Part shown: positions 3,195 through 31,966 of the stretch, one piece after another | Layout of the letters: each line of letters opens with the position of its first letter | Position numbering within the stretch: position 1 is the first letter of the stretch | NCBI RefSeq assembly: GCF_002150005.2 | Contig: NZ_MSPP01000003.1 | Coordinates: 124,001 to 188,000 of the forward strand | Length of the DNA: 64,000 nucleotides | Origin: Marivivens niveibacter | Lineage (GTDB): Bacteria > Pseudomonadota > Alphaproteobacteria > Rhodobacterales > Rhodobacteraceae | Direction of reading: 5' to 3' | Made by a program: the position numbers and the translations under genes | The notes under the pieces: generated by a model | Seen by the model: the letters and a program-made list of their open reading frames with translations, nothing else | What the model was told of the DNA's origin: nothing | Database searches by the model: none

Positions 3195-3210
3195 GTAAAG
3201 AAAAATCACT

Positions 3211-3306: not shown

Positions 3307-3381
3307 GCCCGGGTAGCTCAGGGGTAGAGCAGTGGATTGAAAATCCTCGTGTCGGTGGTTCGATTCCGCCCCTGGGCACCA
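3307..3381 (+). tRNA. tRNA-Phe (GAA)
   Basis: The cloverleaf is complete: acceptor GCCCGGG pairs with CCTGGGC, the D-arm is present, the anticodon loop TTGAAAA gives anticodon GAA, the T-arm is GGTGG-TTCGATT-CCGCC, and the CCA end is encoded. There is a T-T mismatch in the anticodon stem. Its last 66 bp (3316-3381) are repeated exactly at 31767-31832, so this gene is the integration site of the island and was rebuilt by island-borne sequence. Confidence 0.95.
3316..3381 (+). repeat. attL: left 66-bp direct repeat within tRNA-Phe
   Basis: This copy is identical to 31767-31832. It covers the tRNA from the D-stem to the encoded CCA. The identity ends after CCA (next base T here, C at the right copy). 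Such a tRNA 3'-end duplication is the classic footprint of site-specific integration by a tyrosine recombinase. Confidence 0.93.
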
Positions 3382-3450
3382 TTTTTTCCTTTTTGAAAAC
3401 AATGACTTGCCCCAGTTGCTTCATAAAGCTTGTTCTCTTTATCGCGAGTT

Positions 3451-4768: not shown

Positions 4769-4929
4769 CCTTCGATGGCGTCGTGATGGAAACCGTTCTG
4801 GGTGATAATAAGACCGTCAGTGCAATCAGTTATTCGCGCTGACGGTTCGTATTATTTGCCTTTATGTCAAAATACTTCCACAGGTTTACAGTCTACTGTT
4901 GGGGGGGGAGGCAAATATTGGTCCGTCCT

Positions 4930-5328: not shown

Positions 5329-5558
5329 TTGAACCTCTTGTTATCGATGGTTCAAATTTAACGTGTATGTCAGAGTGCGTCGGGTGGGAGCTTTTTGGGT
5401 CTCGTCAAGTTTGCTGAATTTTTAGCGGCTCTTGGCGATCTAAGTTGCTAAGAGCTAAACGCAACCCACGCTAGATTTTCGACCTTGAAGTCGGAAAAGC
5501 AGACGACTTTTGTATGTGTGGCTTGTTGCTGAAACGTTAAATAAGGACGCTTTTCGGA

Positions 5559-6677: not shown

Positions 6678-6897
6678 ATTTGAATCTTTAGAGCACAGCG
6701 TAGGTGGAATATGCGCTCAAGTAATATGTTTTTTTGATGTTTGCGCTGCTTTTGGGTCCGGAAATCCATACCTCGAGGGTTGAAGGGCTCGTCTTGAAAG
6801 ACAATTGGAGTCGGTGCAGTGTTGCAACCCTGGTGAGTATGTATCGTCCTGTTTTTATCGGCAACTTTTGACTTCAGAAATGAAAAAATAACGCTTC

Positions 6898-9800
6898 ATG
6901 TCGTTGCTATTGAATACAGTTCGTGCGTTTCCGCGCGGCCGCACCATTGAAGAATTGCACGCGCTAGTAGGCACTAGTTTTAGCTCATTAGAGCGGCATG
7001 CTCTGCTAGCCGAGTTAGAGACACTACTACAAGCCGGTGAGGTGCAAAAAACTTCAAACGGTAAGTGGAAGCCAGTGCATCGGCAAATGTCTGGTGGGTC
7101 AACTTTCGAGAAACCTTCCCCATCGGCAGTTACAAATCAAACGTTGGAAAACGAAATTCTTCGTGCTGCGAAGTGTTTTGTGACGTCTGGGGTGAAAACT
7201 GAGTCCTCTTCTGTCGAAACTGCTCAGGACGTAGGTGAGCTAGATGCCCATGCTCTTGTTCGTTATTATAGATCGGCACTCCGTTCTGATCCTAGAGGTG
7301 CTCTTCAAGAGAATGTTGATCGCTACGGCACGAAGTGGCACTTATTGTCAGGCCGAAATCGATTAGTCCCATCAGATCAAAATCCGCTAACTTTACGGAT
7401 AGTTCTTGATGACTTGTCTCCGGAGTTTCGCACATCGTTGTTGAAGCGCGAGGCAAATGAAAACGCGCTTGCGATCGGCTGGCCTATGTATGTGGGTAGA
7501 AAAGAAGGCGTCCCTAGCATCTGGCCAGTAGGGTTAATCGCTGCGAATTGGCGCCGCCAGAACGATGAACTCTTAATCCAGGTTGATGCAGATGATGTAT
7601 TGGTTAACCCGAAATGGGTTAAAGACGCTGCAAATAAAACCGGATGGCGACGAGACGATTTAGCTGCCGTTTTCGACGATGAGAATGGTGTCGGTCTCGG
7701 ACGTGACGATTTTGTTTCTAGGCTGAAAGAAGCCGCCGCTACCAGCATTTTATCTGACATTTCGGCAAGCGACTTGACCGATAGTGTCAATGTCAACGAG
7801 TTGGGCATTCACAACGCGGCGGGATTATTTTTACACGATGATTCGAGTTTTACATCCGGCGCTGTGCGTGACCTGGATGAAATTGGGACCTGGGATAAGA
7901 CCATACTGGCTCGGACAGCGTTGGGCGTAGTTTTGGGGTTAGAGGGCACTCCGCCACGGAAAGACGTTCATTCTCTTAACGTCGGCCCGTTGAACGCTGA
8001 ACAAATTGAAGCCGTCTCCAATGCATGTTCGGCGCCGTTAAGCGTTGTCACAGGACCTCCTGGAACAGGGAAGTCCCAAGCAATCGTATCTATGGCGGCA
8101 TCTGTGTTATCTAATGGTGGGTCTGTCTTGGTCGCTTCTAAGAACCATCAGGCTTTAGACGCTGTAGAAGATAGACTTGGTTCAATTGCAAAAGAAACTC
8201 CGTTTATCGTTCGCACGTTAGATCCGGCAAAAAATAAAGACGTTAGCTTTGCGTCACTGCTCAAGGAACTGGTCACGGAAACTTCTGGTGCCGGGTCTAT
8301 AATCGATCAATCATTAGTCGCTGACTGCTTTAGGATGGCTGAGCGTCGGTCGGTTGCTTTCAATAAGGAAGTTCGCCGCGCTAAGTTGGAGTGCCAGATC
8401 GCTGATGTTCACGATCAATTGGTTGCCAGAAGTGTAGTTTTGCGGTCAGAGGTTGATGATCCAGAGCTTGATCGCGATGACAAGCAAGAGCGATCGATGG
8501 TTCGACGGTTTTTGGATAGGCTGATTGAGCTGATTTTAAGCACAAGTAGCAACCCTGAGACGCTTTCAGTTCAAAAACAATCGACCGATTTGAATAGATT
8601 GCTTACGGATTTGCGAACTGAAAGGGATGCGCTAGGTGAGAGCTTCGACTTGGTGGATCTGACAAATCGTATTGCCGAACTTACTAAAAAGATTTTGCCA
8701 CTTATTTTGGCTAATCGAACGAACTTAACTCACGAAGATATCGATGCATTAGATCAACGGTTGGCGGATCTGGAATTTTCGCCTGTTCGCAACAAAATAT
8801 CATCAGACATTGCTTATCAAGTTGTGGAACATAGACCCTTATGGCTTGCATCAGTGTTAGGCACTCCAAATCGCATCCCACTTATTGCCGGACTATTCGA
8901 TTTAGTGATTTTTGATGAGGCAAGCCAGTGTGATATTGCATCTGCTTTTCCTTTGATGGCCCGCGCAAAGCGTGCGGTAGTGGTTGGTGACAACAATCAA
9001 TTGAATTCTATAGCTCCGATCGGCCAAGCGCAGGATCGAAACTTAATGCAGGCGCAGGGGCTCCCAGTATCGCAAATGGCTCGGTTCGCCCAAAGCCGCC
9101 AATCATTGTTTGATTTCGCACGTCGGGTGCCTGGAGCTGAAAAAACATTATTAAAGCAGCAATACCGTTCTGCCGGACCAATCGTAGATTATATTAGTAA
9201 GAACTTCTACGGTGGGGAGTTGAAGACTGCGTATGATCCTTCGTTCATCAAACCACCAAAAAGCCAAAAGCCCGGCATCCATTGGACAAATATTCCTGCA
9301 CCGCTTTCATTAGGTTCCGGCAACGTAAACAGTGCTGAAATAACGGCGATTGTAAGCCACCTTGAACACCTTTTAGTGCACGAAGACTACAGTGGGACAG
9401 TCGGTGTAACTTCACCCTTCCGTGATCAAGTCGCAGCAATCGGCGATGCCGTGAGGCAGAAAATACCCGAACAAAAGTTGATAGGGGCGGAGTTTAAAGT
9501 CGCTACCGTCGATGGCTTCCAAGGGCAGGAGAGAGATCTGATAATTTTCTCGCCTACGCTGGGGGCAGCGAGCGCGCCAAGTGCTTTGACTTTCATGCAA
9601 AGTGACCCAAGACGTTTAAACGTTGCAATTTCCCGAGCTCGAGCGGTAGCGCATGTTTTTGGCGATTTGTCTTTTGCAAGGTCCAGAAAAGTAAGAACTT
9701 TGGCGTCACTGGCTGCCGCGGCAACTGAACCACGTTCACGCGTTGGAGAAGGGCGGTTTGATAGCCATTGGGAAGAGATCGTATATTACGGTTTGAAAAA

Positions 9801-10065
9801 GCGTGGTCTCGACCCGAAGCCGCAATACGACATTGCCGGCAGGCGCTTGGATTTTGCTCTTTTCGGGGCGAGCGGTATCAAACTCGATCTCGAAGTAGAT
9901 GGCCGCAAATGGCACCAAAATGCGGACGGAACTCGTAAAATTTCTGATTACTGGCGTGATCACCAACTTATTTCACTCGGCTGGCGTGTGCGTCGGTTCT
10001 GGGTCGACGAATTAGCCAAAGACTTGGAGGCTTGCTTTGACATCATCGAAAACGACCTATCGTAA
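6898..10065 (+). CDS. UPF1-like SF1 helicase fused to Vsr/DUF559-like nuclease
   Basis: This is the first gene of the five-gene defence-like operon (1055 residues). Residues 1-60 look like a winged helix. The helicase core has Walker A GPPGTGKSQ near residue 386, a UPF1/DNA2-type Walker B DEASQCD near 673, motif III GDNNQL, and motifs V/VI VDGFQGQERD (near 870) and NVAISRARA. The last 105 residues fit a PD-(D/E)XK nuclease of the Vsr/DUF559 type: HWEE, then RRLDFAL, then DLEVDGRKWH, ending in a helix-rich tail. UPF1-like helicases act on RNA or DNA, and CoCoNuT-type McrBC systems carry one. The ribosome site is weak. The 3' end overlaps the next gene by 29 bp, implying coupled translation. 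Confidence 0.85.
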   Translation: MSLLLNTVRAFPRGRTIEELHALVGTSFSSLERHALLAELETLLQAGEVQKTSNGKWKPVHRQMSGGSTFEKPSPSAVTNQTLENEILRAAKCFVTSGVKTESSSVETAQDVGELDAHALVRYYRSALRSDPRGALQENVDRYGTKWHLLSGRNRLVPSDQNPLTLRIVLDDLSPEFRTSLLKREANENALAIGWPMYVGRKEGVPSIWPVGLIAANWRRQNDELLIQVDADDVLVNPKWVKDAANKTGWRRDDLAAVFDDENGVGLGRDDFVSRLKEAAATSILSDISASDLTDSVNVNELGIHNAAGLFLHDDSSFTSGAVRDLDEIGTWDKTILARTALGVVLGLEGTPPRKDVHSLNVGPLNAEQIEAVSNACSAPLSVVTGPPGTGKSQAIVSMAASVLSNGGSVLVASKNHQALDAVEDRLGSIAKETPFIVRTLDPAKNKDVSFASLLKELVTETSGAGSIIDQSLVADCFRMAERRSVAFNKEVRRAKLECQIADVHDQLVARSVVLRSEVDDPELDRDDKQERSMVRRFLDRLIELILSTSSNPETLSVQKQSTDLNRLLTDLRTERDALGESFDLVDLTNRIAELTKKILPLILANRTNLTHEDIDALDQRLADLEFSPVRNKISSDIAYQVVEHRPLWLASVLGTPNRIPLIAGLFDLVIFDEASQCDIASAFPLMARAKRAVVVGDNNQLNSIAPIGQAQDRNLMQAQGLPVSQMARFAQSRQSLFDFARRVPGAEKTLLKQQYRSAGPIVDYISKNFYGGELKTAYDPSFIKPPKSQKPGIHWTNIPAPLSLGSGNVNSAEITAIVSHLEHLLVHEDYSGTVGVTSPFRDQVAAIGDAVRQKIPEQKLIGAEFKVATVDGFQGQERDLIIFSPTLGAASAPSALTFMQSDPRRLNVAISRARAVAHVFGDLSFARSRKVRTLASLAAAATEPRSRVGEGRFDSHWEEIVYYGLKKRGLDPKPQYDIAGRRLDFALFGASGIKLDLEVDGRKWHQNADGTRKISDYWRDHQLISLGWRVRRFWVDELAKDLEACFDIIENDLS

Positions 10066-11818
10066 AACTAATTTCAATACCGTGATAGCTTCCGTTCTTG
10101 CCGTTGCCGCTTTGGGCACAGTCGGTTTTTTGGGCGTTCAGATGAACGCTTTAAATGCGCGGTATGGGCAAATTGCGTCCGATATTGATTACTATTCAAA
10201 TGAAAATTCGCGCCTTTTGGATGAGCGCGCATCTTTGATTGCAAATAGGTCAGAGATACAGTCGCAGATCAGCTTGCTTCGAGCGGAACTACAGCAAGCA
10301 GAGGTAGCCCGCGATGCAGCTTCACGGGCTAAAGATGACGCTAGCGTTCTTCTCGAGGCGAGAAGAGCAGATTTGGACGATGTAGAAGCACGTCTGACAG
10401 CGGCGCAGTCGACCCTAAGGGAGGCGGCACAAATCGATGCTACTTTGGGGGCTTTACGAAGTTCCGTAAGAGATCTTGAGACTGAAGAGGCCGACCTCAT
10501 AAACACTCGAGATGGGCTGATTGAAGAAGTTGAGAGTTTCACAGCTTCCAGAGACCAGATCCAGAACTCCGTCGCGACATTGTCGGAGCGACGTGATGCA
10601 TTGGATCGTGAAATTGAAGAACTACGGAACGATAAATTATCAATTTCAGGCGACGTGGATGGACTTCGAAGGGTAGTTGAAAGCTTGGAGCGTCGGCAAT
10701 CAGAACTGTCCGATGTTGAACAACAATTGTCCAATGCTCAGAGCGAACTTTCGATTGTCGAAGGGAGGCTCGACACGATCCGTCCAGATTTAGAGGAGGT
10801 TCAGTCTCAGATATCCGTTCGTGAGAAAGCTATGGAGGAGCTTCGTGCTGAGGTTGATGACTTGTCTGCGCAACGAGATACTCTGAGAGCATCGGTAGCT
10901 TCTTTGGAGCAGCGAGAGTCTGACGCTAGAGCCTCACTTGCAAGTATCGATGAAGACCATCGTGGTTTGCAGGCTTCCTTACAGACCTTGAGCGACCGTC
11001 GCGATGAGTTGGAGCAGACCGTGTCGGATCTCGAAGGGCGGAGACAGGCAATGGAACAGCAACTCGGGGAATTAGAGGCGATAATTTCAACCAGAGAAGC
11101 CATTCGCGCTCGAAATTTGGATGCGCAAGCCGAAGTGGAAATGTTGGAGGCGCGAAAAGCAGAACTGGACGCCCTAGTTGGCAACCTAGCGGCCCAAGTC
11201 GCGACGCGGCGCGCAGAAATAGAGCAACTGAGTTTAGATGAGGCAGATGCGGAGCAAGCGAGACAGTTATTGGCGCAAACTGTTACCCGAACTAGTGAAT
11301 TAGAAACGGAAATCAGTAACTTGGTTGCGTCAAAGTCGGAACTCGAAGGAGAGTTAGAGCCTCTTCAAGTTCAGGTGCAGAGTTTACGGCAGAATATTTC
11401 ACTGCTCTCGGATGAAAGAAGCCGCCTTGCAGCTGAAATTAACGAAAATGAAGCTTCTGTTTCCGATTTGGAAGTAGCGCTTAACAGGCTTTCTGAAGCT
11501 CAAGCCGCAGTCCTTGAGGCAGAGCGCCAACGGGAGGCCCTAGCTGCTGAAATCGCGCGCTTGGAGGCTGATCGTTCGGTGTTGAGCCCAATAGTTGATC
11601 AGTTGAAGCTTGAAGCAGGAAATTTGAGAGCTGAAATTTCTGCATTGCAAACGGAAGAGCAGGATTTTCAAGAAAGGACTGTTCGGGCTCGTGCAGCTTT
11701 CGTTCAGCTATCGAATGAAATTATTCGACAACAGTCTGAGCTAACAGGGGGCTCCTCACCGGGGGAAGAGACTATTCCAACTGAAATTTCACCGATTGAA
11801 GTCGAAGTCACAGAATGA
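10037..11818 (+). CDS. Membrane-anchored long coiled-coil protein
   Basis: The 593-residue protein has one membrane segment (about residues 13-33). From about residue 45 it is almost entirely heptad-rich coiled coil, full of repeats such as LEAR, LEQR and SELE, to a short disordered tail rich in E, P and T. Its start is TTG at 10037 with a strong GGAGG 6-7 nt before it, inside the helicase gene. Its stop overlaps the ATG of the McrB-like gene. The architecture suggests a rod anchored in the inner membrane, acting as a scaffold or sensor for the ATPase next door. It has no MotA/ZorA-like multi-pass channel domain, so Zorya is unlikely. Confidence 0.8.
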   Translation: MTSSKTTYRKTNFNTVIASVLAVAALGTVGFLGVQMNALNARYGQIASDIDYYSNENSRLLDERASLIANRSEIQSQISLLRAELQQAEVARDAASRAKDDASVLLEARRADLDDVEARLTAAQSTLREAAQIDATLGALRSSVRDLETEEADLINTRDGLIEEVESFTASRDQIQNSVATLSERRDALDREIEELRNDKLSISGDVDGLRRVVESLERRQSELSDVEQQLSNAQSELSIVEGRLDTIRPDLEEVQSQISVREKAMEELRAEVDDLSAQRDTLRASVASLEQRESDARASLASIDEDHRGLQASLQTLSDRRDELEQTVSDLEGRRQAMEQQLGELEAIISTREAIRARNLDAQAEVEMLEARKAELDALVGNLAAQVATRRAEIEQLSLDEADAEQARQLLAQTVTRTSELETEISNLVASKSELEGELEPLQVQVQSLRQNISLLSDERSRLAAEINENEASVSDLEVALNRLSEAQAAVLEAERQREALAAEIARLEADRSVLSPIVDQLKLEAGNLRAEISALQTEEQDFQERTVRARAAFVQLSNEIIRQQSELTGGSSPGEETIPTEISPIEVEVTE

Positions 11819-13845
11819 TTGGGCAGACAATGTTTGATGCTAATTTGTATATCTTTATTGCGCTCTGTGTATCTGTAGTGGTCCTGATTATTCTGAGCCT
11901 TTCTAGAGCAATAGTTCATGATAAAGTGATTAACTTGCAGGCGCCCCTTGCAACCGAAAGCGAGGTATTAGCTCGCATTCGCGAGAAGCGCGAAACGTTA
12001 ACTGATTTAGAAGGTGAGTTGGAAAAACGTCGGGCTGCTCTAGCGAATGTTGCAGATATCCAAGCTGAGTTGGATGCAACGGTTCGTCAACTTGATGAAG
12101 CAAAGACAGAGTGGGAACAGATGTCAGAAAGGCGCGAGGAAATACTCGCCCTTCGACACGAAACAGAACAGGCGCGAGTTGAACGGCTCGAGATTGAAAC
12201 TGAACTGGTCGGACAGAAAGCGGAACTTGAACATGTTCGCGATCGCTTGGAACGGGCCGACGCATTAGTGGGTCGGATTGAAGAGCTGGAGAGCCGAAAG
12301 ACTGAGCTTGAGATTTCACTTGCTGCTCTGCGGGACGAAGAACAAGATTTGAAAGATGCAGAAGCCGAGCTGCGTAGAATTGTTGAGAAAATCGATGATT
12401 TGACCCAGCTAGAGGGCACTTTGACCGGAAAACTTGAGGCCAAGAAGGCTGAAATTTCTGAACAGCAAGAGCGGATAAATTCTCTTCGAAACTTCCGAGC
12501 TGGGGTTGATGCGGAGCTTGATGCCGTCAACGCCACACTGGCGGCCGCCAAGCAAAAGTCGACCGATGTTGAAGAGCACGCTGCTCGGCTTGAGGAACAA
12601 GTGTTAACTCTAGAAGCGCGAAAAGCAGTTTTAGAAGATGCGGTTCGCAAATTGAATGCAAAATCTTCGGGCGGGGCTGACCCGGATGAAGATCCGATGC
12701 GTGAATTGAAGCAGCGCCCTCAGGTGATCGAGCGTCTTGTCGAGTGGAGTGAGCCTGAACGAATTGATGAAGCAGATGCGATCAAGAACGTGAAAAAGCG
12801 CTTTGATGCCTTTGCCTTACAATATCCAGAACGGACACTTCGAGCGTTTCATACTTCGATGAAAGTTAATGATACTACTCAAATGACAGTCCTGGCGGGT
12901 ATCTCGGGAACAGGCAAGAGCCAACTTCCTCGTCAATATGCGGCGGGAATGGGGATTGGATTCTTACAGGTTCCAGTTCAGCCTAGATGGGATAGCCCGC
13001 AAGACCTAATGGGTTTTTATAACTATATCGAAGGCCGCTTCAGACCAACCGATATGGCTCGAGCACTCTACGCGCTGGATACCATCAACAATCCGGAAAA
13101 CGCTGTTCAAGATAGAATGATGATGGTGCTCTTGGACGAGATGAATTTGGCACGCGTCGAGTATTATTTCTCTGATTTCCTCAGCCGACTTGAGAGCCGT
13201 CCAGCTCGAGATGCTGTTGGAGAAGCGAACTTAAGAAAAGACGCGGAGATTGAACTGGAAATTCCTAACGCTGTTACGCGGATTTTCCCGGGCTATAACC
13301 TGCTGTTTGCGGGCACGATGAACGAGGATGAGAGCACTCAATCACTGTCTGATAAAGTCGTCGACCGAGCAAACGTAATGCGTTTCGGGGCTCCGAAAAC
13401 CATTTCCAAAGGTCAACGAAAAACTGGGGCTATAGAAGCGAATGCATTAAGCCTCAAAGCGTGGGAACGCTGGTGTAACCGAAGTCTTCGTGCCGATGAA
13501 AAGAGCGCGGTCGATGATGCCGTAAACTCGATGTTGGAGCTAATGCGAGATTTCGGGAAGCCTTTTGGTCACCGGCTTGGTCGAGCAATTGAGGCCTATG
13601 CTACGGTCTACCCTGAAGCTGAAGGCGTTAGTGACCGTGTTGGAACTGCTCTTGCGGATCAAATTGAAATGCGACTTTTGCCAAAGCTTCGGGGTGTTGA
13701 TGTTGAAGAAAAAGCCGCTGAGTTTGAAGCCTTGGAACGTATGGCCTCAAAGTTTGGTGACGATAGCCTTGCGGAGGCTGTGCGGAAATCGGTCGAAGAC
13801 GCAGAACTGACCGGTCAATTTGTTTGGAAAGGGGTTATTCGCTGA
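11815..13845 (+). CDS. Membrane-anchored coiled-coil McrB-type AAA+ ATPase
   Basis: The 676-residue protein begins with a membrane helix (about residues 10-32), followed by about 240 residues of coiled coil, then an AAA+ domain from about residue 290. That domain shows Walker A GISGTGKSQL (near 362), Walker B and the McrB-type signature LLDEMNLARVEYYFSDFL (near 437), and a sensor/GTMN region AGTMNEDEST (near 498). These are the McrB hallmarks, which couple nucleotide hydrolysis to a DUF2357/McrC partner, and that partner is the next gene. A TM anchor plus coiled coil in place of a DNA-reading domain is unusual and recalls CoCoNuT CnuB proteins. The stop overlaps the next start (TGATG). Confidence 0.85.
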   Translation: MIGQTMFDANLYIFIALCVSVVVLIILSLSRAIVHDKVINLQAPLATESEVLARIREKRETLTDLEGELEKRRAALANVADIQAELDATVRQLDEAKTEWEQMSERREEILALRHETEQARVERLEIETELVGQKAELEHVRDRLERADALVGRIEELESRKTELEISLAALRDEEQDLKDAEAELRRIVEKIDDLTQLEGTLTGKLEAKKAEISEQQERINSLRNFRAGVDAELDAVNATLAAAKQKSTDVEEHAARLEEQVLTLEARKAVLEDAVRKLNAKSSGGADPDEDPMRELKQRPQVIERLVEWSEPERIDEADAIKNVKKRFDAFALQYPERTLRAFHTSMKVNDTTQMTVLAGISGTGKSQLPRQYAAGMGIGFLQVPVQPRWDSPQDLMGFYNYIEGRFRPTDMARALYALDTINNPENAVQDRMMMVLLDEMNLARVEYYFSDFLSRLESRPARDAVGEANLRKDAEIELEIPNAVTRIFPGYNLLFAGTMNEDESTQSLSDKVVDRANVMRFGAPKTISKGQRKTGAIEANALSLKAWERWCNRSLRADEKSAVDDAVNSMLELMRDFGKPFGHRLGRAIEAYATVYPEAEGVSDRVGTALADQIEMRLLPKLRGVDVEEKAAEFEALERMASKFGDDSLAEAVRKSVEDAELTGQFVWKGVIR

Positions 13846-15338
13846 TGATGCGATATTCCCGTCCTTGGAACGGTCAAGAAATCAGTCAAGAGCAAGCGTT
13901 TAGACCTGATGACTGTCTCATATCGGAATGCACATCATTATCCGAAGCCGGAGCGCATTCCGTTTTGATGTCCAACGGCTCCGGAACTCAGCAAAGCTAT
14001 CTATTACAGCATCCTTACCCTAAACGGCCAATCGAGCATTCTCCTTTGAGGAGTGGCTTTTTTACTCGTCCACGAGCCGGAAAAGAAAAGGACGCAACGC
14101 CAGAAGCGCTCGAAGCGTTCCAGCGAATGAATGAAGTCGTTGCTCGCGTTCAGGAGTTGCAGGAGGCTCTCGATGAGCCAAGTAAACTGTGGAGCAATTT
14201 GCAGGCCTCTTGGGATAAGGCTGAGCAGGAAGACGAGCCGCGAATGGCGGAAATTGTTCGTCAAGCAAGGGACCTGGAAAAGCCGCTTAAGGAACTCAAA
14301 CAACGAATTAGGCGCGTGCTACGGAGGCAAACTGAACTTACATCATTGGATCGAGTTCAAGAGATGGACCGATCATCAATGGTGTGGTTATCAAGACAGC
14401 CAGGCAATACGATCGCTGAACGTGCAGGAAGTAGCCAACGCATCATGGCTGTTGTGCGAAAAGAGAACTTTGATACTCTCGAAAACCGCGTGCTACATGC
14501 CTATTCGGATTTGGCCGCGAATGTAGGAAAAGAATGGATCAGAGAGCACACTCGTGCTCGAGGCAGTGAACGATACCGACAAGTCGAAAACTTCATAAAG
14601 CTGTGTATTTCTTTGTCGCGAGATCTACGCGAACTGGGAATTGGTATCGCAACGTCTGACGTTACCCCCAATTATGTATTGATGGAGGATAAGGGGTATC
14701 GACGCGTCCGAGAAGCTTGGGAAAAACTGCTTAGGCGCGAAGATGCCAAAGATGAGCTCTGGAAGTGGCAAGCAGAAACCTGGACAGATTTTTCAGTTCT
14801 GTTGTTGGTTCTGTCGATTTTTGAGATGCCAGACACCGAGTTAATTGCTCAATCACCAATCTTGTTTAATGACGAGGCGGTAAAGGGCGTTTGGTATAAG
14901 CAAGACCGACCAATTGCGGTTTTCTGGCTAAAATCAATAAACCGCGTTGTCGAAGTTATGGCGCGTCCAGATCGCCCAGGCACCTTGATGTATCTCTCGA
15001 GGGCACATGTTGCACTTCGGGTTTCTGATCCCTCTGACCCGTCGGCGTATCCTCATAGGGTCGCCGTTTGGACTCCACATGCGCTACGAAAATTAGACTT
15101 ATTAGGTGCAAGCGAAGGTGCTTTTCGCAGGCTCTATGATCTGCAGAGATTGCCAAGTCAGACTGAGCGCATAAAGCACGGACTCATTTTGACACCGGCT
15201 CATGGCGAGGCTCAGACAGAGGATATTGAGCAATCCGGTCTTCTAGTTCATGCAATTTCTTTGGACGGTTCTGGGGCTCCTTTAGCAAATGGTCGTCGGG
15301 CTATTCGAGCATTTTTGACGCGAGATATTTGGGGCTAA
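13845..15338 (+). CDS. DUF2357 protein (McrC-side partner)
   Basis: This 497-residue protein contains a coiled-coil stretch (about residues 80-165). It then has a region matching DUF2357, with the typical ENFDTLENRVLHAY near residue 206 and a following helical bundle. DUF2357 is the N-terminal domain of McrC-type proteins that dock on McrB rings. I see no intact PD-(D/E)XK motif in the C-terminal half, so cleavage may come from the nuclease on the helicase subunit. The start ATG at 13845 overlaps the previous stop (TGATG) and has AAGGGG upstream. The stop is one base from the next gene. The family call is by motif; the missing nuclease is an inference. Confidence 0.7.
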   Translation: MMRYSRPWNGQEISQEQAFRPDDCLISECTSLSEAGAHSVLMSNGSGTQQSYLLQHPYPKRPIEHSPLRSGFFTRPRAGKEKDATPEALEAFQRMNEVVARVQELQEALDEPSKLWSNLQASWDKAEQEDEPRMAEIVRQARDLEKPLKELKQRIRRVLRRQTELTSLDRVQEMDRSSMVWLSRQPGNTIAERAGSSQRIMAVVRKENFDTLENRVLHAYSDLAANVGKEWIREHTRARGSERYRQVENFIKLCISLSRDLRELGIGIATSDVTPNYVLMEDKGYRRVREAWEKLLRREDAKDELWKWQAETWTDFSVLLLVLSIFEMPDTELIAQSPILFNDEAVKGVWYKQDRPIAVFWLKSINRVVEVMARPDRPGTLMYLSRAHVALRVSDPSDPSAYPHRVAVWTPHALRKLDLLGASEGAFRRLYDLQRLPSQTERIKHGLILTPAHGEAQTEDIEQSGLLVHAISLDGSGAPLANGRRAIRAFLTRDIWG

Positions 15339-15339
15339 G

Positions 15340-17724
15340 ATGCGTAAACTAAAACTTTGCGGTTATGACCTGAATGGGTTGGTCGATCGTGTGGCCAAGA
15401 ATTGGACTTTTACGGCGGGGGGCGACACGCTCATTGGTGGAGAGAATCTCTCTCAGCCTATTGTCGCTCCGAGTATTGTTCGTCTACTAGGCGATCGGAA
15501 ACCAATCTGGGTCGGTGGTGCCCAAGCATCCTTTGCTCCACATGGTCGTGGTGGTGGTTGGGGAGATATTGGTAAGGTAGAAAATAGAATGCTCGTCCGT
15601 GAGGTTCTCGCGGATCAAGGTGCAGACCGGGATCAACTTGCAGCTTGCATGAGCGGATTGGCAAGTGGTGCTCGTTTCTCAGTAGTATCAATTGATGAAC
15701 ATGATGCCGCTATTGAGCAGCTGCAGGAAAGGCTAATTTCCGCAATCGCAAAAGCTCGCTTGGGTCGGCCATTACTTGTGTGGCGCTCTGTCTTGGTCGT
15801 TCTAGGGCAATTGTTGGATGCTGGTGAAGCTTTTGCCCCTAAGGACAAAATGAAGGTCGGGGTCATAAGTCACAATGCATCAGGTTTGAGCCTCCAAACT
15901 TTGATTTTGCGCTCAACGAACTTGGAAACTGGGCCGGAGTTTGCTCCTGAACGTCGCCAAAATGCAGAATTAGTGGCAACTTCTCAGGGCTACGAAGGAT
16001 TATTGAAGCGCGCCCAAGCTAAATTTGAACGTAAAATCGACTTGAGTAGCGAGCAATGTGCGCAATTTGAAGCGCAATTAAAGCTAGCATTGCACGGCCG
16101 AAGCGATGAAGTTTTGACTCGCAATTCTCGCGGGGCCTTTGTTCATATCCCAGCTTTCGATTGTTCCACTGAGCAAAAGCCTATCGAGGGTGATGTATTT
16201 GGTAAGCTCGATGGCTGTGACATTGTTTTGTTTGAGACGTTGTCCGAGGGATCTACAAGAAAGTTTCTCTTCGAGGATATTCAAAGGCGTCTTAGTTTAC
16301 CATTGATCTTAACGAAGCCAGAGGTGGTAGCTAGAGGAGCGTTAGAAGCTGCGCGCCGCTTGTCAAACGGATACCCAGTCTATTTTGATTTTCTACCAAC
16401 TATTTCGACGATCGTGCTCAAAGACTTTAGCGCAAAGAACTTCGATCTAGTCAATGCGGACGAAACTTTACCGGCTGGCAGGATTTATCGATCTAAAAGT
16501 CCCGCAAAATTTGCGATGCAACCGGGTCAGTCAAGTATCTCAATTTACTTGAAAAAGCAAATGATTGACCGCCCAAGGAAGGCGAAAATCGATATTGGAG
16601 CAGGGGCCGACGAAATTGTGCCAGTTGGCTTGAGCGTCGAACAAGCACCCGCAGCGGGGCGAGCTAAACTTATTGTGGAGTCTCCGTCTCTTTCTCGTCA
16701 GTTTTTCATTGACTGGGACTCCGCTGAAGAGTTGAGCCAGACTTGGGACGAGCTTTTAGAAGAGCTTTCTGAGGGAAGCGCGTCGATTCCAAAACGCTTG
16801 GTTTTGCCTTCATCTATGGATCTTTGGAACGGAATTGACGGAAATGAAGGGATTGCAGAGATTGTAACAAGGGAAGCCCTTAAGAAAAGCCCCGATTGGA
16901 AGACACTCGCTAAAGCATTTGCGAGATCTTACAAGAGAGCTTACCCGATCTCGAGTGAAGGAGAGATTCCTAAAGAGGTAGACGACGACGTTTTGAGAAG
17001 TCTGGACGATTTAACTGATCGTGCGTTGGTTGATGTAATGGATCGGCTTGAGGCTCGAAGGCCCGGTGAGAATGAGACGTTGCAGTTCTTAACTTGGCAG
17101 TTCAAGCGTGTGGATCCGAAATTGACGTCTGCACTACTGCAAATTCTACACGAACGTAATTCGAAGGGACGGCATATAACCGTCCGATATCCAGGATCTT
17201 GGGTGTTGTTTTATCAGGGCGTTGGGCGCACTTGTTCAGATACGACACGAGAGCAAGAAGCCATAAATGTTATGCTTCACAATTCAACCGCACCGTGGAA
17301 TTGGCGACATCAGACCGCAGCATTAGCGTTTATTTTGTCACGTTCTGATACTGCACCGATGCACCTCTCACAAACTGAAGTAAGCTTCCTGACATCCAAG
17401 GCGTTAGAAGAATTCTCGGAACAGCTAGGCTCAAACTATACGAAGTTTAATTACGCTCCATTCTTGCTTGGGGGGCTAATTCGTTGGCGCTTGAAGTCAC
17501 CCTACGCGTTCATGTTAGGTTCGGACCCCTTGGCAGAAAAGGTTCAAGCCGCAATCCTCAAAACTATTGCTGATCTTCAACGCCTTTCACGCAACAGTTG
17601 GGAAGAAAAAGCAAAGGCCGAGCGCTACACGAGAGTTTTGGAGGGCCTGTTGGATGAGCTGAATGGAGTTAGTTCTAACCCGGATTTGCTGTTGGATCTC
17701 TTTAATCTCAAAGATTCATCATGA
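15340..17724 (+). CDS. Degenerate Hsp70/actin-fold-like protein of the defence operon
   Basis: This 794-residue last gene of the operon is not closely familiar. Weak Hsp70-like landmarks occur in order: GYDLNG near residue 8, where phosphate-1 (GIDLGTT) would be; an SSEQCAQFEAQLKLAL stretch like the ALS segment; IVLFETLSEGSTRKFLFED near 295, like the VGGSTR loop; then KPEVVARGALEAARRLSNG near 325, like the NPDEAVAxGAA segment. A region resembling a substrate-binding domain follows (to about 450). The GG-x-T/phosphate motifs are missing, so it is probably a pseudo-ATPase. Residues about 500-794 are unassigned and mostly helical. The start follows the previous stop by one base, and the gene ends 2 bp from a convergent nuclease gene. 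Confidence 0.6.
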   Translation: MRKLKLCGYDLNGLVDRVAKNWTFTAGGDTLIGGENLSQPIVAPSIVRLLGDRKPIWVGGAQASFAPHGRGGGWGDIGKVENRMLVREVLADQGADRDQLAACMSGLASGARFSVVSIDEHDAAIEQLQERLISAIAKARLGRPLLVWRSVLVVLGQLLDAGEAFAPKDKMKVGVISHNASGLSLQTLILRSTNLETGPEFAPERRQNAELVATSQGYEGLLKRAQAKFERKIDLSSEQCAQFEAQLKLALHGRSDEVLTRNSRGAFVHIPAFDCSTEQKPIEGDVFGKLDGCDIVLFETLSEGSTRKFLFEDIQRRLSLPLILTKPEVVARGALEAARRLSNGYPVYFDFLPTISTIVLKDFSAKNFDLVNADETLPAGRIYRSKSPAKFAMQPGQSSISIYLKKQMIDRPRKAKIDIGAGADEIVPVGLSVEQAPAAGRAKLIVESPSLSRQFFIDWDSAEELSQTWDELLEELSEGSASIPKRLVLPSSMDLWNGIDGNEGIAEIVTREALKKSPDWKTLAKAFARSYKRAYPISSEGEIPKEVDDDVLRSLDDLTDRALVDVMDRLEARRPGENETLQFLTWQFKRVDPKLTSALLQILHERNSKGRHITVRYPGSWVLFYQGVGRTCSDTTREQEAINVMLHNSTAPWNWRHQTAALAFILSRSDTAPMHLSQTEVSFLTSKALEEFSEQLGSNYTKFNYAPFLLGGLIRWRLKSPYAFMLGSDPLAEKVQAAILKTIADLQRLSRNSWEEKAKAERYTRVLEGLLDELNGVSSNPDLLLDLFNLKDSS

Positions 17725-18083: not shown

Positions 18084-18339
18084 CTCGACCTCCGTTAACC
18101 TTTTGTTAACTATTGTCGAGATCGGTGCAATCTCTTTTCCGGCTAGGTCGTCGTGCACCAGCTTGGTTCTTTTGCTTTGAAATGCCTATTTTAAGATAGA
18201 AATACTCACCAAATTTTACAGAAAGTTGTCCGCCGCATCTACTTAGTTAAGCAACTCAGTTCCAACGCTAATCACGCTGCTTGACAGATTATTTCAACAC
18301 GGCTCATCTAGAGGTATTCTATAAATATTTGGTTCAAAT

Positions 18340-21966: not shown

Positions 21967-24900
21967 TCACTTCAGGTCGGCTGCAATCGCCTCGGCTTGC
22001 TTTAGAACGGTTTTTACTGCGTCCAGTGTCAAATCTGGTGGGTAGCCGTAGAACGTGAGGATCTTTTTCACCGCGACCCGCATCTTTGCACGCACGTTAT
22101 CGCGGCGCCACCAATCTGCACCAGCATTGTTCCTGACGGTTTTAACGAGCTCTGTAGCAATCACCTTTAGTTTGTCATTAGACATGATGTCGATTGCGCT
22201 CTTGTTTTGCGCCAAAGCGTCATAAAATGACCGTTCTTCAGGCGTTAGCCCATCTTCTGGCTGTTCGCGCAAATCTCTGGCGATTTCGATCAATTCTTGG
22301 ATGATTTGTAGGGCATCCACACTGCGGTTGTGATAGCGGGCGATCGCTTGCTCTAATCTACCGGAAAACTCTTCGTTTTTGACAACATTGCTGCGCGTTT
22401 TCGCTTTAATCTCGCCGTTTAACAACTTCTTCAGTGCCTCAACGGCAAGGTTTTTGTGCTCCATGTTCTGGAGCTCAATCATGAATTCTTCGGAAAGGAC
22501 GCTGATATCTGGCCGGTCAAATCCGCAAGTCTCTAGGATGTCGACGACCTCGGTAGATGCAACCGCGTTATTCACAAGCTGTTGGATGGCGAAATCAGGG
22601 CGAGCAGATCCCGCACTAGGCGCGCCCACCCCTAATTTTTCTAAACCCGAGCGGATCGCTGTAAAGAATGCCACTTCAACCGCATGATCGGTTGCCTGTG
22701 GGCTACCTGAAGCAAGTTTATATGCCTTCACGAGTGCGGCAACTGCATTCAGGAATCTTTTCAGAAACGTTTCGTCCTCTTGCCTCTTTGCAAGCACATG
22801 TTCGATAGCAAATTGCAGCGCTCCGAAACGCGAGTTTGCGTCGCCGTTGAGGGCGTCCTGATATTCGAACCCGTGCATGACCTGCCTGATGACGTCCAGA
22901 GCGTCTAGGAAGGTCGCTACAGCGTCAGCTTCGCTAATTCCGGTCTCTGCCTGGTCTGACTGCGAGTAGTGCGCTAGGGCGGCTCTCAGGTCCGCTGCGA
23001 GCCCTATGTAGTCCACTACCAGTCCTGCCGGTTTCCCTTTGAAAACTCGATTGACCCGTGCGATCGCCTGCATCAAGCCATGGCCCTTCATCGGTTTGTC
23101 TACATACAGGGTGTGCATGCACGGTGCATCGAAACCTGTTAGCCACATATCCCGAACGATCACGATCTTCAGCGGATCTTTAACGTCCTTATACCGATTT
23201 CGAATGGCTTCTTGCTTTGACTTGGAGCGGATGTGGGGTTGCATCGATTGTTCGTCACTGGCGCTTCCAGTCATGATGACCTTTATTGAGCCTGTGTCGT
23301 CAGTGTCGCCATGCCAATCGGGGCGCGCTGCCACAATGCGATTGTAGACCTCTACGCAGATGCGTCGGCTCATGCATACGATCATGGCTTTACCGTCGAT
23401 CGCTTTCATTCGCTCATCGAAATGGGTCAAAATATCTTCGACAACAGCATCTAGTCGCTTATCTGCGCCGACTAATGCTTCAACTTGGGTCCACCGTTTT
23501 GCAACGGAAGAAGTGGCGTTGTCATCCAAGTCTTCGGTCGCTTCGTCAAAATCTTCATCTATGTGTGAGACAGCGGCTTCATCGAGTTCGATTTTGGCAA
23601 CGCGGGCTTCGTAGTAGATCGGCACAGTCGCGCCATCTTGAACTGCTTGGGATATGTCGTAAACGTCGATGTATTCGCCAAATACCCCGCGAGTATTTGC
23701 TCCAACCAATTCGACAGGCGTGCCAGTAAAGGCAACATACACAGCGTTCGGCAAAGCTTTGCGAAGTTGGTAAGCTAGGCCGTGTTTTATGTCGCCTGTT
23801 TTAGAAATTTTTGCATCGAAACCGTATTGGCTGCGATGTGCCTCATCTACTAACACGATGACATTGGAGCGCTCGGTTAACTCCGGAAAAATATCGCCTT
23901 CATCTGGTCTGAACTTTTGGATCGTTGAAAATATGACGCCGCCAACTTCGCGGGCGAGCAAAGTTTTCACGTCGGAGATGCTTTCAGCTTGAACCGGTTC
24001 TTCCCCCAGAATGTCCTTGCAGCGCCCGAACGTTCCGAAGAGTTGATTGTCCAGATCGTTGCGATCTGTGAGCACAAGGAGGGTTGGGTTCTCTAACGTG
24101 GGGTGGTGCATGACCCTGCCAGCGAGAAACGTCATCAGGAGCGATTTTCCAGACCCCTGAGTGTGCCAGATGACCCCAGCCTTACCATCCCCACCTCGTG
24201 CGCCCTGAATGGCCTCTACGGCCTTCCTGACGGCGAAGAACTGATGGTAGCCTGCGACCTTTTTGATCGGTCCTCTACCTTCATCTTCAAACACAACATA
24301 CCAACGTAAAAGGTCGAGCAGTGTCTCGCGGTTCAAAAGGCCCTTTGCAAGTGTCGAAAGGGCCAAATCTGACCCGCTAGGAACCAACGATACGCCGTCT
24401 AAAGTGCGCCATTTCATAAAACGATCTAAATTCGCGGATAGCGAGCCATAGCGGGCGGTATGTCCGTCACTGATAACGTTCAGTAGCGATGTCCGGAACA
24501 GGTCTGGGATGTCATGTTTATATGTTTCGATTTGGTTCCAAGCCGCTTCGATATCCTTACCCTCAGTTCCCTTCAGTTCGATAACAACAAAGGGCAACCC
24601 GTTGAGGAAGATAACCACATCGGGAATTCGGGTGTTGCTTCCAACCACGTCGAATTGGTTGATTGCTCTCCAATCATTGACCGCGTCTGTCCAATCAACA
24701 AGCTTGACGACTGCATTGCGTTCTTCGCCTTGATCAAAATACGTCGTTTTTATGCCGTCGACGAGCAGTTGATGGAGGCGCCTGTTTTCTTGGATTATGT
24801 CAGTCGTGAAAACAGCATCTAAGACCTTATTTGCCGCCTCCGATAGTGCGCGCTCGGGTAAGTCTGGGTTCAGTCTTGTCAGCGCATCTCGAAATATGGG

Positions 24901-25044
24901 TTCTAGTATCGTTTGATGATAAGAAGATCTTAGGCTGTCTGGGATGTCAGGAGCGGCTTGTGAACCATGAACGGACGGAATGTTTTGCTGTTCGAGTTCC
25001 GCAAGAAGATAATTTTCGAGGTCAGCTTCAGTCAAAAACGCCAT
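21967..25044 (-). CDS. hsdR: Type I restriction enzyme R subunit
   Basis: The 1025-residue HsdR has an N-terminal PD-(D/E)XK nuclease with [18 protein letters not shown] (about residues 150-170). An SF2 translocase follows: Walker [10 protein letters not shown] near 295, DEAHRSQYG near 398, AFTGTPVEL, and motif VI in QAIARVNRV. The C-terminal helical domain that docks on the methylase is also present. It cuts DNA lacking host methylation after translocation. The start abuts the stop of the DUF4268 gene, so both are probably translated together. Length and motif order are normal for the family. Confidence 0.95.
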
Positions 25045-26184
25045 TTATTCGGTTTCCAAGGATTTTTTGCGCATTTCGGCGGAAATTTTCTGAATATTCG
25101 GGGTGAAAAAGGTCTCAAATTTTGAATGATTGTCCGCAAGCCATGCGATCATGTCGGGCCAATTTTCTTTGCTGTAACCTTGAACTGCTTTCTTCACCAA
25201 CAGAACGCCTGCATTCCGTTTTTCCGGATATTGCCATTCGAGCGGCTCGGCGAAATCGTTAGGATTGATATCGGTCTGATCCTTCAATTTTTCCATAAAG
25301 GCTTGGTTGAGGTCTCGGTCGCCAAAGTCGAAATGTATCTCGACGCGGATTTCATGCCTGAGAAATGACAATTTCAGCGATACACCCGGAACGTCGATGC
25401 TCGATGTGATGCTGCGGTCCTTGCGGGGGCTGTTGCTGAGCCATCGAGTGTTTCCACGTTTGCGAAAATCTTCCAACAGATCGGCCCAAAACGCCAATCG
25501 CATCTCGTGGCTCCACCGTTTGTGGCCCTTAGTTGCCTTTTCTTCGGTCTCTTTCGCCGTCATTTGTATCATAAATTCAGCGGCTTCAGGTGTCGGGATC
25601 ACCTGTTGGATGTCCACGAATAGACTATCGCCGTGCTGGTAAGGTGTTACTCTTAGGCAGCGGGCGTCAATGTCATGCTCTCTCAGCCAAAGCACCGTTG
25701 ACGTTACTTCTTTGCGAAAATGTGCCGCAATAAACATTAGTCTCTGGGCATGCCCTTCGTTGAGCACGACGCCATCGAGGCTGTCTACGTCCAAGAACTC
25801 ACACATGCGTTCGTTCGCATTTCCACCGCCGCAGTAACGGTCTAGGTATTGTTGATAAATAACGAGGATTTGGGACTTGGTCAGGCTCGACACATAGGCG
25901 GCATACTTCAACGCTTGCCAGGCGACATCACGGCCGGAATCGTCAAGCTTATTTTCAATGATGACCAGTTGTCCCTCTTGGTCGATGGCGAGTAGGTCCA
26001 ATCGCTCACGAGTATCGGCAAACCCATCAAACTCTTTTTGAATGATCAAGAGTTCTTCGCCCAGGGCATCAGGCTGGTTCGCAAGCCATTCCTGAAGATG
26101 TTCGCGTTCGCGTAATTTCAACTCTGAAAAGCGCGCGGAATATAGTTTTTGAATGCGATTTTTTGTGAGATCTACCTGAAACAT
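25045..26184 (-). CDS. DUF4268 / PD-(D/E)XK-like protein in the hsd locus
   Basis: The 379-residue protein has an N-terminal half with a nuclease-like pattern, ERLDLLAID then QLVIIENKL (D...ExK), resembling NucS/archaeal endonuclease-type cores. Its C-terminal half (from about residue 220) resembles DUF4268, often found beside restriction systems. It is one base upstream of hsdR and in the same direction, so it is likely an accessory nuclease or regulator of the type I system. Whether it is catalytically active cannot be told here. Confidence 0.65.
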   Translation of the reverse strand: MFQVDLTKNRIQKLYSARFSELKLREREHLQEWLANQPDALGEELLIIQKEFDGFADTRERLDLLAIDQEGQLVIIENKLDDSGRDVAWQALKYAAYVSSLTKSQILVIYQQYLDRYCGGGNANERMCEFLDVDSLDGVVLNEGHAQRLMFIAAHFRKEVTSTVLWLREHDIDARCLRVTPYQHGDSLFVDIQQVIPTPEAAEFMIQMTAKETEEKATKGHKRWSHEMRLAFWADLLEDFRKRGNTRWLSNSPRKDRSITSSIDVPGVSLKLSFLRHEIRVEIHFDFGDRDLNQAFMEKLKDQTDINPNDFAEPLEWQYPEKRNAGVLLVKKAVQGYSKENWPDMIAWLADNHSKFETFFTPNIQKISAEMRKKSLETE

Positions 26185-26265
26185 AAATTAAAAACCTAAA
26201 TTTCCCGAAAGTTACCTAAGTCTCTGCTGAAAAAGAAAAATACCTTCGAAAACACCCATTATTTT

Positions 26266-26988
26266 CTAACTATCGCTGTGATCACGGCCCAGCCTTAGGA
26301 TGTCGCGGACTAGGCTGGGTATGTTTGCCATCCCGCCACTCAACGCTGTAACGCCTAGTTGAACTGCTTTTTTCCCAATTTCTGAACCAGCGCCTTTGAC
26401 GGCTTGTTCAATAAACATCCGGAATAGATTTTGTCTTTCGACCCCCGCCAGTTCATCGCGATGCCTTAATAATTCGTCCTCGATTTTCGCTCTCGCGCCT
26501 TCGGGCATGACTTCGAACGCCAGTGCCAGAAATTTGTCGCCTGAAAGAACGATAATTGAACTGTTGAAGGATGAATCGACGATGCCATAGTCTTTTTGGA
26601 CCAAATCCTTGGCGAATTCGCGCAAGTATCCGTCTTCTATTTGAATGCGAACCTTATCAGACACGAAAAGGTCGTCATTTTCTTCACGGATGCGGTTCTC
26701 GATGATGATCCTCAAGCGACGCAATGCTTCGGTTTCATCGGTTAGTTGGCGGTAGGACAGTTCGTCCAGCATCGATCGCACTTTGCCCCGTTTTGCGCGG
26801 AGTTTTTGAGCGATTTCGAAGGCCGTTGGTGGATTTTCGAAAGACCAGCCGTCGCTATGTTCGATCAACAGGCGCAACACCAGTAAATCGATCTCGCGTT
26901 TGGTCATCGTCGTAAAGCCGCCCGACAAATATGCTGTCAAAAAGTCCGTGGCAAAGCTGTCTCTATCCAGCTGATCTAAAATCGTCAT
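26266..26988 (-). CDS. Hypothetical protein between hsdS and DUF4268 gene
   Basis: The 240-residue protein is not recognised. Residues about 30-85 look like a winged helix (KREIDLLVLRLLIEH, then AFEIAQKLRAKRGKVRSML). The rest is helical, with a glycine-containing amphipathic C-terminus (QLGVTALSGGMANIPSLV). Its start overlaps the hsdS stop by 4 bp (ATGA), so translation is coupled. A regulatory or toxin-like accessory role in the restriction locus is possible; no closer call is justified. Confidence 0.6.
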   Translation of the reverse strand: MTILDQLDRDSFATDFLTAYLSGGFTTMTKREIDLLVLRLLIEHSDGWSFENPPTAFEIAQKLRAKRGKVRSMLDELSYRQLTDETEALRRLRIIIENRIREENDDLFVSDKVRIQIEDGYLREFAKDLVQKDYGIVDSSFNSSIIVLSGDKFLALAFEVMPEGARAKIEDELLRHRDELAGVERQNLFRMFIEQAVKGAGSEIGKKAVQLGVTALSGGMANIPSLVRDILRLGRDHSDS

Positions 26989-31766: not shown

Positions 31767-31832
31767 GCTCAGGGGTAGAGCAGTGGATTGAAAATCCTCG
31801 TGTCGGTGGTTCGATTCCGCCCCTGGGCACCA
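31767..31832 (+). repeat. attR: right 66-bp direct repeat (truncated tRNA-Phe)
   Basis: Identical to 3316-3381. It lacks the 5' acceptor strand and the first bases of the D-arm, so it cannot make a tRNA. It marks the right end of the island and the original tRNA 3' end before integration. Confidence 0.93.
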
Positions 31833-31966
31833 CTTTTTCTACAATTGAAATCTATGATCTGATCTGCGCCATCGCTGTGTCGTGCGGTTTTGCGTCGCGT
31901 CTGTATGTGATGACAAAACCTGTCAAAGGCCTTAATAGCTTAAGTGAACTTGCATGTGGGTGCCTT

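Follow-up and report, generated by a model that had tools for sequence, protein, structure and literature searches.

What does a five-gene operon on a mobile island of Marivivens niveibacter encode, and where in the cell would its products act? The operon lies at 6898-17724 of the window, by which we mean the whole 64,000-nucleotide stretch analyzed here (contig NZ_MSPP01000003.1, positions 124,001 to 188,000). By its sequence and predicted folds it is almost certainly a complete Type III-B CoCoNuT with the gene order CnuH-CnuA-CnuB-CnuC-CnuD. The operon itself is a true and undamaged representative of this named type; two proteins of the type also carry conserved N-terminal segments that are predicted membrane anchors, of which we found no description. 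Its genes are the following:

6898..10065, + strand: cnuH (P0001, 1055 amino acids), UPF1-like superfamily 1 helicase with a C-terminal Vsr/MTES_1575-like nuclease
10037..11818, + strand: cnuA (P0002, 593 amino acids), N-terminal transmembrane-like segment and long coiled-coil rod; TTG start within cnuH
11815..13845, + strand: cnuB (P0003, 676 amino acids), transmembrane-like segment, coiled coil and McrB-type AAA+ domain with an NxD motif
13845..15338, + strand: cnuC (P0004), DUF2357 McrC-like protein with a putatively inactivated PD-(D/E)xK-like C-terminal domain
15340..17724, + strand: cnuD (P0005, 794 amino acids), predicted Hsp70 fold with an all-helical C-terminal part

An earlier reading of this DNA, hereafter the original prediction, had described five genes that overlap or abut here, and the open reading frames (ORFs) agree: in order along 6898-17724 the junctions are a 29-nt overlap, a 4-nt overlap, TGATG and a 1-nt gap. 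For cnuC we favor the ATG at 13845 over the TTG at 13824 because relatives and the TGATG junction favor it.

Conservation of the five-gene set

Do the five genes belong together? The comparison covers 48 loci, namely 46 matches (42 on genome contigs, one in a viral collection and three on plasmids), locus L022 and the window, with some near-copies among them. In a neighborhood search that had been set beforehand as a check on the original prediction, the same five genes were found in the same order, all intact, in 35 of the 48, which argues that the set is not a chance grouping. Across these 35 complete loci the pairwise distances among the five proteins correlate (r = 0.84-0.92); 500 label shuffles gave at most r = 0.21 for CnuA/CnuB and 0.18 for CnuH/CnuD, the only pairs shuffled. 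A contig end cuts five of the 13 incomplete loci (L035, L047, L048, L055 and L060), and cnuH is interrupted at the same place in five others that are mutual near-copies (L057, L058, L059, L061 and L076). In L044, L065 and L040 it is cnuB, cnuD and cnuA, respectively, that is split or short, the "CnuA" of L040 being a 66-residue ORF. The interruption in L076 (Rhizobium tropici, 6963-9267) consists of an IS21-type istAB pair between two cnuH pieces, and in L057, L058, L059 and L061 cnuH is likewise in two pieces of the same sizes.

The cnuA TTG start is present in every complete locus, with a cnuH/cnuA overlap of 29 nt in 28, 32 nt in five, 38 nt in one and 41 nt in one. The CnuH codon under this TTG always ends in TT (CTT in 25 loci, ATT in nine, TTT in one). 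CTT makes up 21% of CnuH leucine codons, yet it occupies the overlapped position in 25 of the 35 loci, a count that must be read with the fact that the start was chosen by a motif, a choice that itself biases toward the overlap position.

Assignment to Type III-B CoCoNuT

What kind of system is it? Type III-B CoCoNuTs were named from sequence and are mainly alphaproteobacterial (Bell et al. 2024, eLife 13:RP94800, PMC11090510). As the main text of that paper describes them, CnuH is a UPF1-like helicase with a Vsr nuclease fused directly to it, CnuA is a separate protein composed of coiled coil only, CnuB is an NxD McrB with a coiled coil, CnuC is an McrC with an inactivated nuclease, CnuD is a separate Hsp70-like gene, and TerY-P is lacking. 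The window operon shares this whole component set as well as alphaproteobacterial relatives. Finer features ascribed to the type are a Sul7s-like winged helix-turn-helix at the N-terminus of CnuH, an OB-fold and a large helical insertion following Walker A in the same protein, and HEAT-like helical repeats in CnuD. The kinship with McrBC and CoCoNuT systems that the original prediction proposed is thereby confirmed; its view of the operon as an unusual variant fails in so far as the Hsp70-like subunit and the fused Vsr nuclease both belong to III-B as published in that main text.

Each component was recognized in turn. For example, CnuH matches SEN1 (3.9e-33) and UPF1 (1.1e-27) in profile comparison with the PDB and AAA_12 (2.9e-29) and AAA_11 (3.4e-20) in Pfam, and its C-terminus matches MTES_1575 (PF18741, 1.5e-11) and DUF559 (8.8e-5), both over the cut-off, so that the predicted UPF1-type helicase with a Vsr-like nuclease is recovered. 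We take the MTES_1575 and DUF559 families to be Vsr-like. Similarly, CnuB has TMN-x-DE in 35 of 35 complete loci and the NxxD pattern in none, Walker A is present in all 35, and residues ~45-285 match coiled-coil families. CnuA is a separate coiled-coil protein with an N-terminal hydrophobic segment in addition; all of the matches listed for it (25 of 43 in Pfam, 25 of 30 in NCBIfam) fall in the coiled-coil region.

Likewise, CnuC matches DUF2357 (3.3e-6), and its PD-(D/E)xK-like domain is, to judge by its residues, inactivated by loss of the catalytic lysine: the (D/E)xK lysine position is Gln in 26 of the complete loci, Met in nine and Lys in none. The best PDB matches of its structural model, which was built from 38 aligned sequences (predicted local distance difference test, pLDDT, 85.8; predicted TM-score, pTM, 0.84), are the McrBC chains 7vsr_M (E 4.0e-4, probability 1.00) and 6hz4_M (1.1e-3, 0.99); the TM-scores are low (0.21-0.32) and the root mean square deviation is large, and the match is therefore a distant one.

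Neither Pfam, NCBIfam and PADLOC (E up to 0.1) nor a PDB sequence search (E up to 1) returned anything for CnuD, which has its own ORF, so that its kinship is visible from the fold only. Its model (pLDDT 88.1, pTM 0.64) matches DnaK and other Hsp70s, the best match being DnaK chain 4b9q_A (E 4.6e-13, probability 1.00, TM-score 0.38/0.48), with 192 PDB chains at E up to 0.001, in keeping with the Hsp70-like subunit first predicted. Residues ~505-790 are almost wholly helical in the model. The positions that we take to be catalytic in DnaK (Lys70, Glu171 and Asp194) appear, by eye only, to be replaced in CnuD. In L048/L024 (3190-7068) CnuC and CnuD form a single ORF of 1292 amino acids that resembles the Type III-A CnuCD fusion, although on this short contig, where cnuB is split, it may be an assembly error.

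Finally, the TerY-P triad was found neither among the scanned island proteins (P0006-P0010, P0012-P0016 and P0019; small ORFs lay outside the scan) nor among the matches listed (25 of 110 families) for 105 ORFs flanking the operon in relatives. The 105 comprise 104 picked from the 156 nearest, in a pool of 226 ORFs of at least 150 amino acids from 39 loci, together with the Shedu gene of L078, which was included knowingly.

The predicted CnuH nuclease

Which subunit would cut nucleic acid? Two parts of CnuH are relevant here:

6898..7083, + strand: N-terminal block of ~62 residues, winged helix-turn-helix-like by eye only
9772..10053, + strand: Vsr/MTES-like nuclease domain, residues 959-1052 (PF18741, 1.5e-11)

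Residues D985, E999, D1001, H1006 and D1017 of the nuclease domain are invariant in a 34-sequence alignment. The catalytic lysine of CnuC is lost and these residues are retained, and CnuH is therefore the likely nuclease of the operon. A strict form of the nuclease spacing pattern is satisfied in only 31 of 35 loci, and the strict DEASQ pattern of the helicase in 33. Elsewhere conservation is uneven: the N-terminal block has a mean pairwise identity of 0.50 across the complete loci and is followed by an unconserved linker (0.17), and residues ~451-640, between Walker A and DEAS, are poorly conserved (0.29).

Predicted N-terminal membrane segments of CnuA and CnuB

Are the two coiled-coil proteins anchored in the membrane? 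In the window each has a hydrophobic segment near its N-terminus:

10079..10138, + strand: CnuA hydrophobic segment, residues 15-34, 19-residue hydropathy 2.33
11845..11904, + strand: CnuB hydrophobic segment, residues 11-30, 19-residue hydropathy 3.05

Beyond these, no hydrophobic window exceeds 1.16 in CnuA or 0.94 in CnuB. The original prediction had assigned transmembrane segments to both proteins, and an N-terminal hydrophobic segment indeed recurs in all 43 intact CnuA proteins (39 unique; 19-residue hydropathy 1.54-2.68, uncharged core of 21-36 residues) and in all 45 intact CnuB proteins (41 unique; 2.29-3.44, core of 20-31 residues). A hydropathy of 1.6 in a 19-residue window was taken as the transmembrane-like cut-off; within the first 75 residues it is passed by CnuA in 34 of 35 loci and by CnuB in all 35, and by CnuH, CnuC and CnuD in none. 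Two observations tell against the cut-off: an internal window of at least 1.6 occurs in 34 of 35 CnuH, four of 35 CnuC and six of 35 CnuD proteins, and the top N-terminal value of CnuD, 1.54, equals the bottom value of CnuA. Hydropathy alone is unspecific, and the transmembrane call therefore rests on position, length and conservation, by which both segments are very likely real.

Outside the anchors the proteins differ in pace. The CnuA rod is, by sequence comparison, fast-changing (mean identity 0.21); the CnuB coiled coil has a mean identity of 0.39 and the CnuB AAA+ part 0.67. As an oddity of this one operon, which is how they had first been presented, the anchors do not stand, since all relatives examined share them; as a feature missing from the published description they do. 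The main text of PMC11090510 uses "transmembrane" six times, never for III-B, and names no membrane segments for this type, and we found III-B anchors neither there nor in literature searches, which covered mainly the open literature, supplements lying outside them.

Predicted membrane orientation and proposed place of action

On which side of the membrane would each domain lie? In CnuB, lysine plus arginine residues are more numerous after the segment than before it in 40 of 41 unique sequences, which would put the AAA+ domain in the cytosol, a placement that we regard as highly probable. In CnuA, net charge is greater before the segment in 38 of 39 unique sequences, which would put the rod in the periplasm. 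The absence of cysteine fits a periplasmic rod, though the sequences are related and thus not independent: past residue 45 of CnuA, trimmed to the TTG start, there are 0 Cys in 17,111 residues of the 35 complete loci, compared with 7 in 8,575 residues of the CnuB coiled coil. We favor the periplasmic placement of the CnuA rod, with some reserve.

Several points pull the other way. The CnuB rule is almost automatic, because few residues precede the segment to carry charge, and net charge gives no information there (among the 41 it is greater in 15, equal in 15 and less in 11). Counted by lysine plus arginine alone, the excess in CnuA lies on the N-terminal side in only 30 of 39, with six ties and three reversed, and the untrimmed longest ORFs include five of 39 unique CnuA sequences with one cysteine. 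Moreover, the main text of Bell et al. (PMC11090510) suggests other coiled coils as possible partners of CnuA and RNA as the target of CoCoNuTs; a membrane is required for neither, and both weigh against action there.

These points raise the alternative that the substrate of the same system is viral or aberrant RNA, possibly at the ribosome as in Bell et al., that the anchors only localize or oligomerize it, and that the CnuA rod is cytosolic beside the coils of CnuB and CnuH. The Hsp70 fold of CnuD would suit it, as RNA targeting by III-B is, in the main text of Bell et al. (PMC11090510), perhaps to be inferred from the Hsp70-like CnuD, and so would the lack of unanimity in CnuA orientation by lysine plus arginine alone. 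However, both anchors are retained in every intact relative even though mean identity in the CnuA rod is down to 0.21, and net charges and the lack of cysteine indicate a periplasmic rod. We consider this alternative rather improbable.

Proposed mechanism

On balance, and by analogy with SNIPE and Zorya, the reading that we find most likely is that the operon encodes an antiphage system tethered to the inner membrane, which would act at the point of entry of phage nucleic acid. CnuB would have its N-terminus outside and its coiled coil and AAA+ domain inside, and would form a McrB-like motor with CnuC as a non-cutting partner. CnuA would be a second anchor, its rod probably periplasmic. CnuD, with its Hsp70 fold, would recognize the target, which may be RNA, in line with the proposal of Bell et al., or a protein. 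CnuH would then be recruited, and its helicase-nuclease would destroy nucleic acid at the membrane, the site of phage genome entry. Tethering would spare the host chromosome, as is described for SNIPE in the parts of that paper drawn on here (PMC13190303). An antiphage role as such we regard as probable, though we met no report of antiphage activity of Type III-B; that the target is entering phage nucleic acid seems to us a little less than an even chance.

More tentatively, we suggest that III-B systems might be trans-envelope machines, in which two single-pass proteins span the membrane in opposite orientations, the CnuA rod (~400-600 residues) lying in the periplasm and the CnuB GTPase in the cytosol. 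The fast-diverging rod could recognize a phage tail, an ejected protein or entering DNA, and the paired transmembrane helices could signal to the GTPase and CnuH to fire at the injection site. If so, III-B would amount to McrBC-type restriction with sensing outside the cytoplasm, of which we have met no description.

The same layout could serve another end. In this case CnuA or CnuB would sense envelope stress or adsorption, and CnuH would degrade host DNA or RNA before phage release, that is, by abortive infection. The predicted trans-envelope layout and the invariance of the CnuH nuclease residues are compatible with it, and immunity at the level of the population has been described for Zorya II (PMC11890865). 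Against this, no effector domain was recognized besides the helicase-fused nuclease, and the evidence here fits direct restriction equally; we judge abortive infection unlikely.

Genomic island and spread

Is the operon a defense system at all, or a nucleic-acid machine of the mobile element or of housekeeping that happens to sit on an island? It lies on an integrase-bearing island of ~28.5 kb inserted at tRNA-Phe:

3307..3381, + strand: tRNA-Phe, the integration target
3316..3388, + strand: island left end, att copy, a 73-nt direct repeat of the tRNA-Phe 3' end
31767..31839, + strand: island right end, att copy, 72/73 identical to the left copy
30245..31609, - strand: tyrosine integrase of the island (Phage_integrase 6.3e-15, Arm-DNA-bind_3 3.8e-15)
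21967..29854, - strand: type I restriction-modification locus with hsdR, a DUF4268/PDC-S11 gene, an unknown gene, hsdS and hsdM

The att repeats, the integrase and hsdR/hsdS/hsdM bear out the mobile island beside a type I restriction locus of the original prediction. The GC content is 0.488 on the island, 0.506 in the left flank and 0.547 in the right flank. A non-defense role might be suggested by the island ORFs that have no defense match (P0006, P0009 and P0010). However, CnuD was found in only 16 of 394 genomes of the same family, 14 of them at E < 1e-100 and several partial or broken, which suggests a sporadic spread within it. The operon also adjoins the type I locus here and a Shedu and restriction-modification set in L078, CnuC is kin to McrC, and III-B is published as a restriction-type system from comparative genomics in the main text of PMC11090510. 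A non-defense role is, in our estimate, very improbable.

The wider neighborhood is only suggestive, since the defense-neighbor count has no background control, and this tempers the antiphage reading: the 105 flanking ORFs gave ResIII 5, Methylase_S 3, Phage_integrase 3, N6_Mtase 2 and SduA_C 2. In L078 (R. leguminosarum OyaliB, 1-8170) a Shedu nuclease and a restriction endonuclease/methyltransferase set lie directly upstream of the operon. In L045 (Celeribacter sp. PS-C1, 14011-15354) an integrase 53% identical to that of the window lies directly downstream. Inside the type I locus of the window, the gene at 25045-26184 matches DUF4268 and the PADLOC candidate PDC-S11 (2.8e-150).

A CnuC scan of genome contigs gave the 42 loci, whose titles are mostly Rhodobacterales and Rhizobiales, with one metagenome-assembled genome labelled Gammaproteobacteria. 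Beyond these there was one integrase-bearing contig in the viral collection and no match in phage records. Of 23 plasmid records with any match, three matched across 80% or more of the query. A CnuB profile run over 385 genomes of the class returned the window itself and one AAA-only match, and nothing else. On a plasmid of Jannaschia sp. W003 (L081, 12525-15352) one gene matches only the C-terminal part of CnuC (36% identity) and is followed by a CnuD-sized gene; they lie beside a nitric oxide synthase gene, and no Pfam match was found.

Two neighbors of the operon, P0006 (5559-6677) and an SNase-like gene (17727-18158), were considered as extra subunits and rejected, since tblastn (cut-off 1e-4) matched neither of them in any of the 47 relative loci. 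P0006 is an orphan ORF divergent to cnuH, with hydrophobic stretches by eye and no family match. Thermonuclease/SNase-like genes adjoin both the window operon and the III-C-like operon of pSYSX (L079, 10224-10895), possibly by chance.

In a congener (G396; L090, 4126-14211) a serine recombinase and cas9-cas1 come after this tRNA-Phe, and the site may thus be a recurrent one for defense genes (n = 2). In genome G117 an mdoG-like gene follows the same tRNA-Phe. G117 and G398 share the tRNA-Phe and its left gene, and the stretch examined there matches neither CnuH nor CnuB. They were rejected as clean empty sites: acnB, the right neighbor in the window, is on another contig there, the right junction is therefore not syntenic, and no empty-site match is claimed.

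Comparison with known systems

How does the operon compare with its nearest known counterparts? Among the CoCoNuTs, Types III-A and III-C have in common with it an NxD CnuB, a DUF2357 CnuC, an Hsp70-like domain and a UPF1-like helicase; in the main text of PMC11090510, III-A has a CnuC-CnuD fusion, a HEPN effector and usually TerY-P, unlike III-B, and III-C has a PLD effector. We classed III-A and III-C systems from their neighbor genes. No N-terminal transmembrane segment was found in CnuB of four III-A plasmid copies, from Phytobacter and two Enterobacter (these three near-identical) and from Caballeronia. A TerY-P-linked CnuB of Pseudanabaena (L093) has no N-terminal hydrophobic segment either, and it is a weak control because the NxD pattern was undetected there. 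A III-C-like CnuB from Synechocystis pSYSX, one sequence classed from its PLD gene, does have an N-terminal hydrophobic segment (2.39); among the 60 of 260 plasmid records listed, the only near-full matches of more than 80% cover come from pSYSX of Synechocystis, in four copies, and from one Photobacterium plasmid. CoCoPALM resembles CnuB in having a transmembrane segment and an FtsB-like coiled coil fused to an NxD McrB GTPase, but in the main text of PMC11090510 it is tied to signal-peptidase-family proteins, with no UPF1-like helicase, CnuA or CnuD named. No signal-peptidase-family pilus assembly protein was found in the operon or among the scanned island proteins, small ORFs again lying outside the scan, and CnuB as a CoCoPALM was ruled out by the helicase, CnuA and CnuD, which point to III-B.

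In a profile comparison of the sort that the original prediction had called for, CnuB matches the PADLOC candidate PDC-M26A (1.7e-42, a partial match whose best stretch is 163-434 of 724 positions). None of the papers listed in a search uses the term PDC-M26. The NxxD McrB motif and the McrC catalytic lysine of canonical McrBC are absent from all 35 complete loci. Likeness to Hhe, Mokosh MkoA/MkoC and ProA (PADLOC and NCBIfam models) resides in the CnuH helicase region, which matches MkoA at 2.1e-51. The ProA and Hhe matches extend into the nuclease region, to residues 1052 and 1038-1037, with CnuH far under the NCBIfam cut-offs (ProA 153.9/1500 bits, Hhe 99.5/2000).

For the proposed place of action the instructive comparisons are SNIPE and Zorya, each taken here from part of its source. 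SNIPE (Saxton et al. 2026, PMC13190303) is an inner-membrane nuclease that can cut phage DNA as it is injected; a form lacking the transmembrane segment is toxic to host cells. That segment lies close to the N-terminus and is oriented N-out/C-in, as we predict for CnuB. It differs in being a single protein of DUF4041 and GIY-YIG domains, with no AAA+ motor, helicase or Hsp70 named in that part. We note that both SNIPE domain types, DUF4041 and GIY-YIG, are encoded near the CoCoNuT copy of L076, as separate coding sequences (4532-5260 and 1-767). Zorya (Mariano et al. 2025, PMC11890865) likewise has an inner-membrane complex with a long tail, and its nuclease effector is a separate component, but its motor is MotAB-like and ion-driven and the tail, that of ZorA, extends into the cytoplasm. 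A ZorA/ZorB MotAB-like multi-pass motor has no counterpart in CnuA and CnuB, given the lack of further hydrophobic windows, and the only ZorA match among those listed is at E 0.052, on P0004. CoCoNuTs are a diverse group, and a pair of anchors conserved in the III-B systems examined would mean that these systems are to be expected at work on the inner membrane instead of in the cytosol. The anchors would thereby tie McrBC-like restriction to the distinction of self from non-self by location, as in SNIPE, or to action at the inner membrane, as in Zorya.

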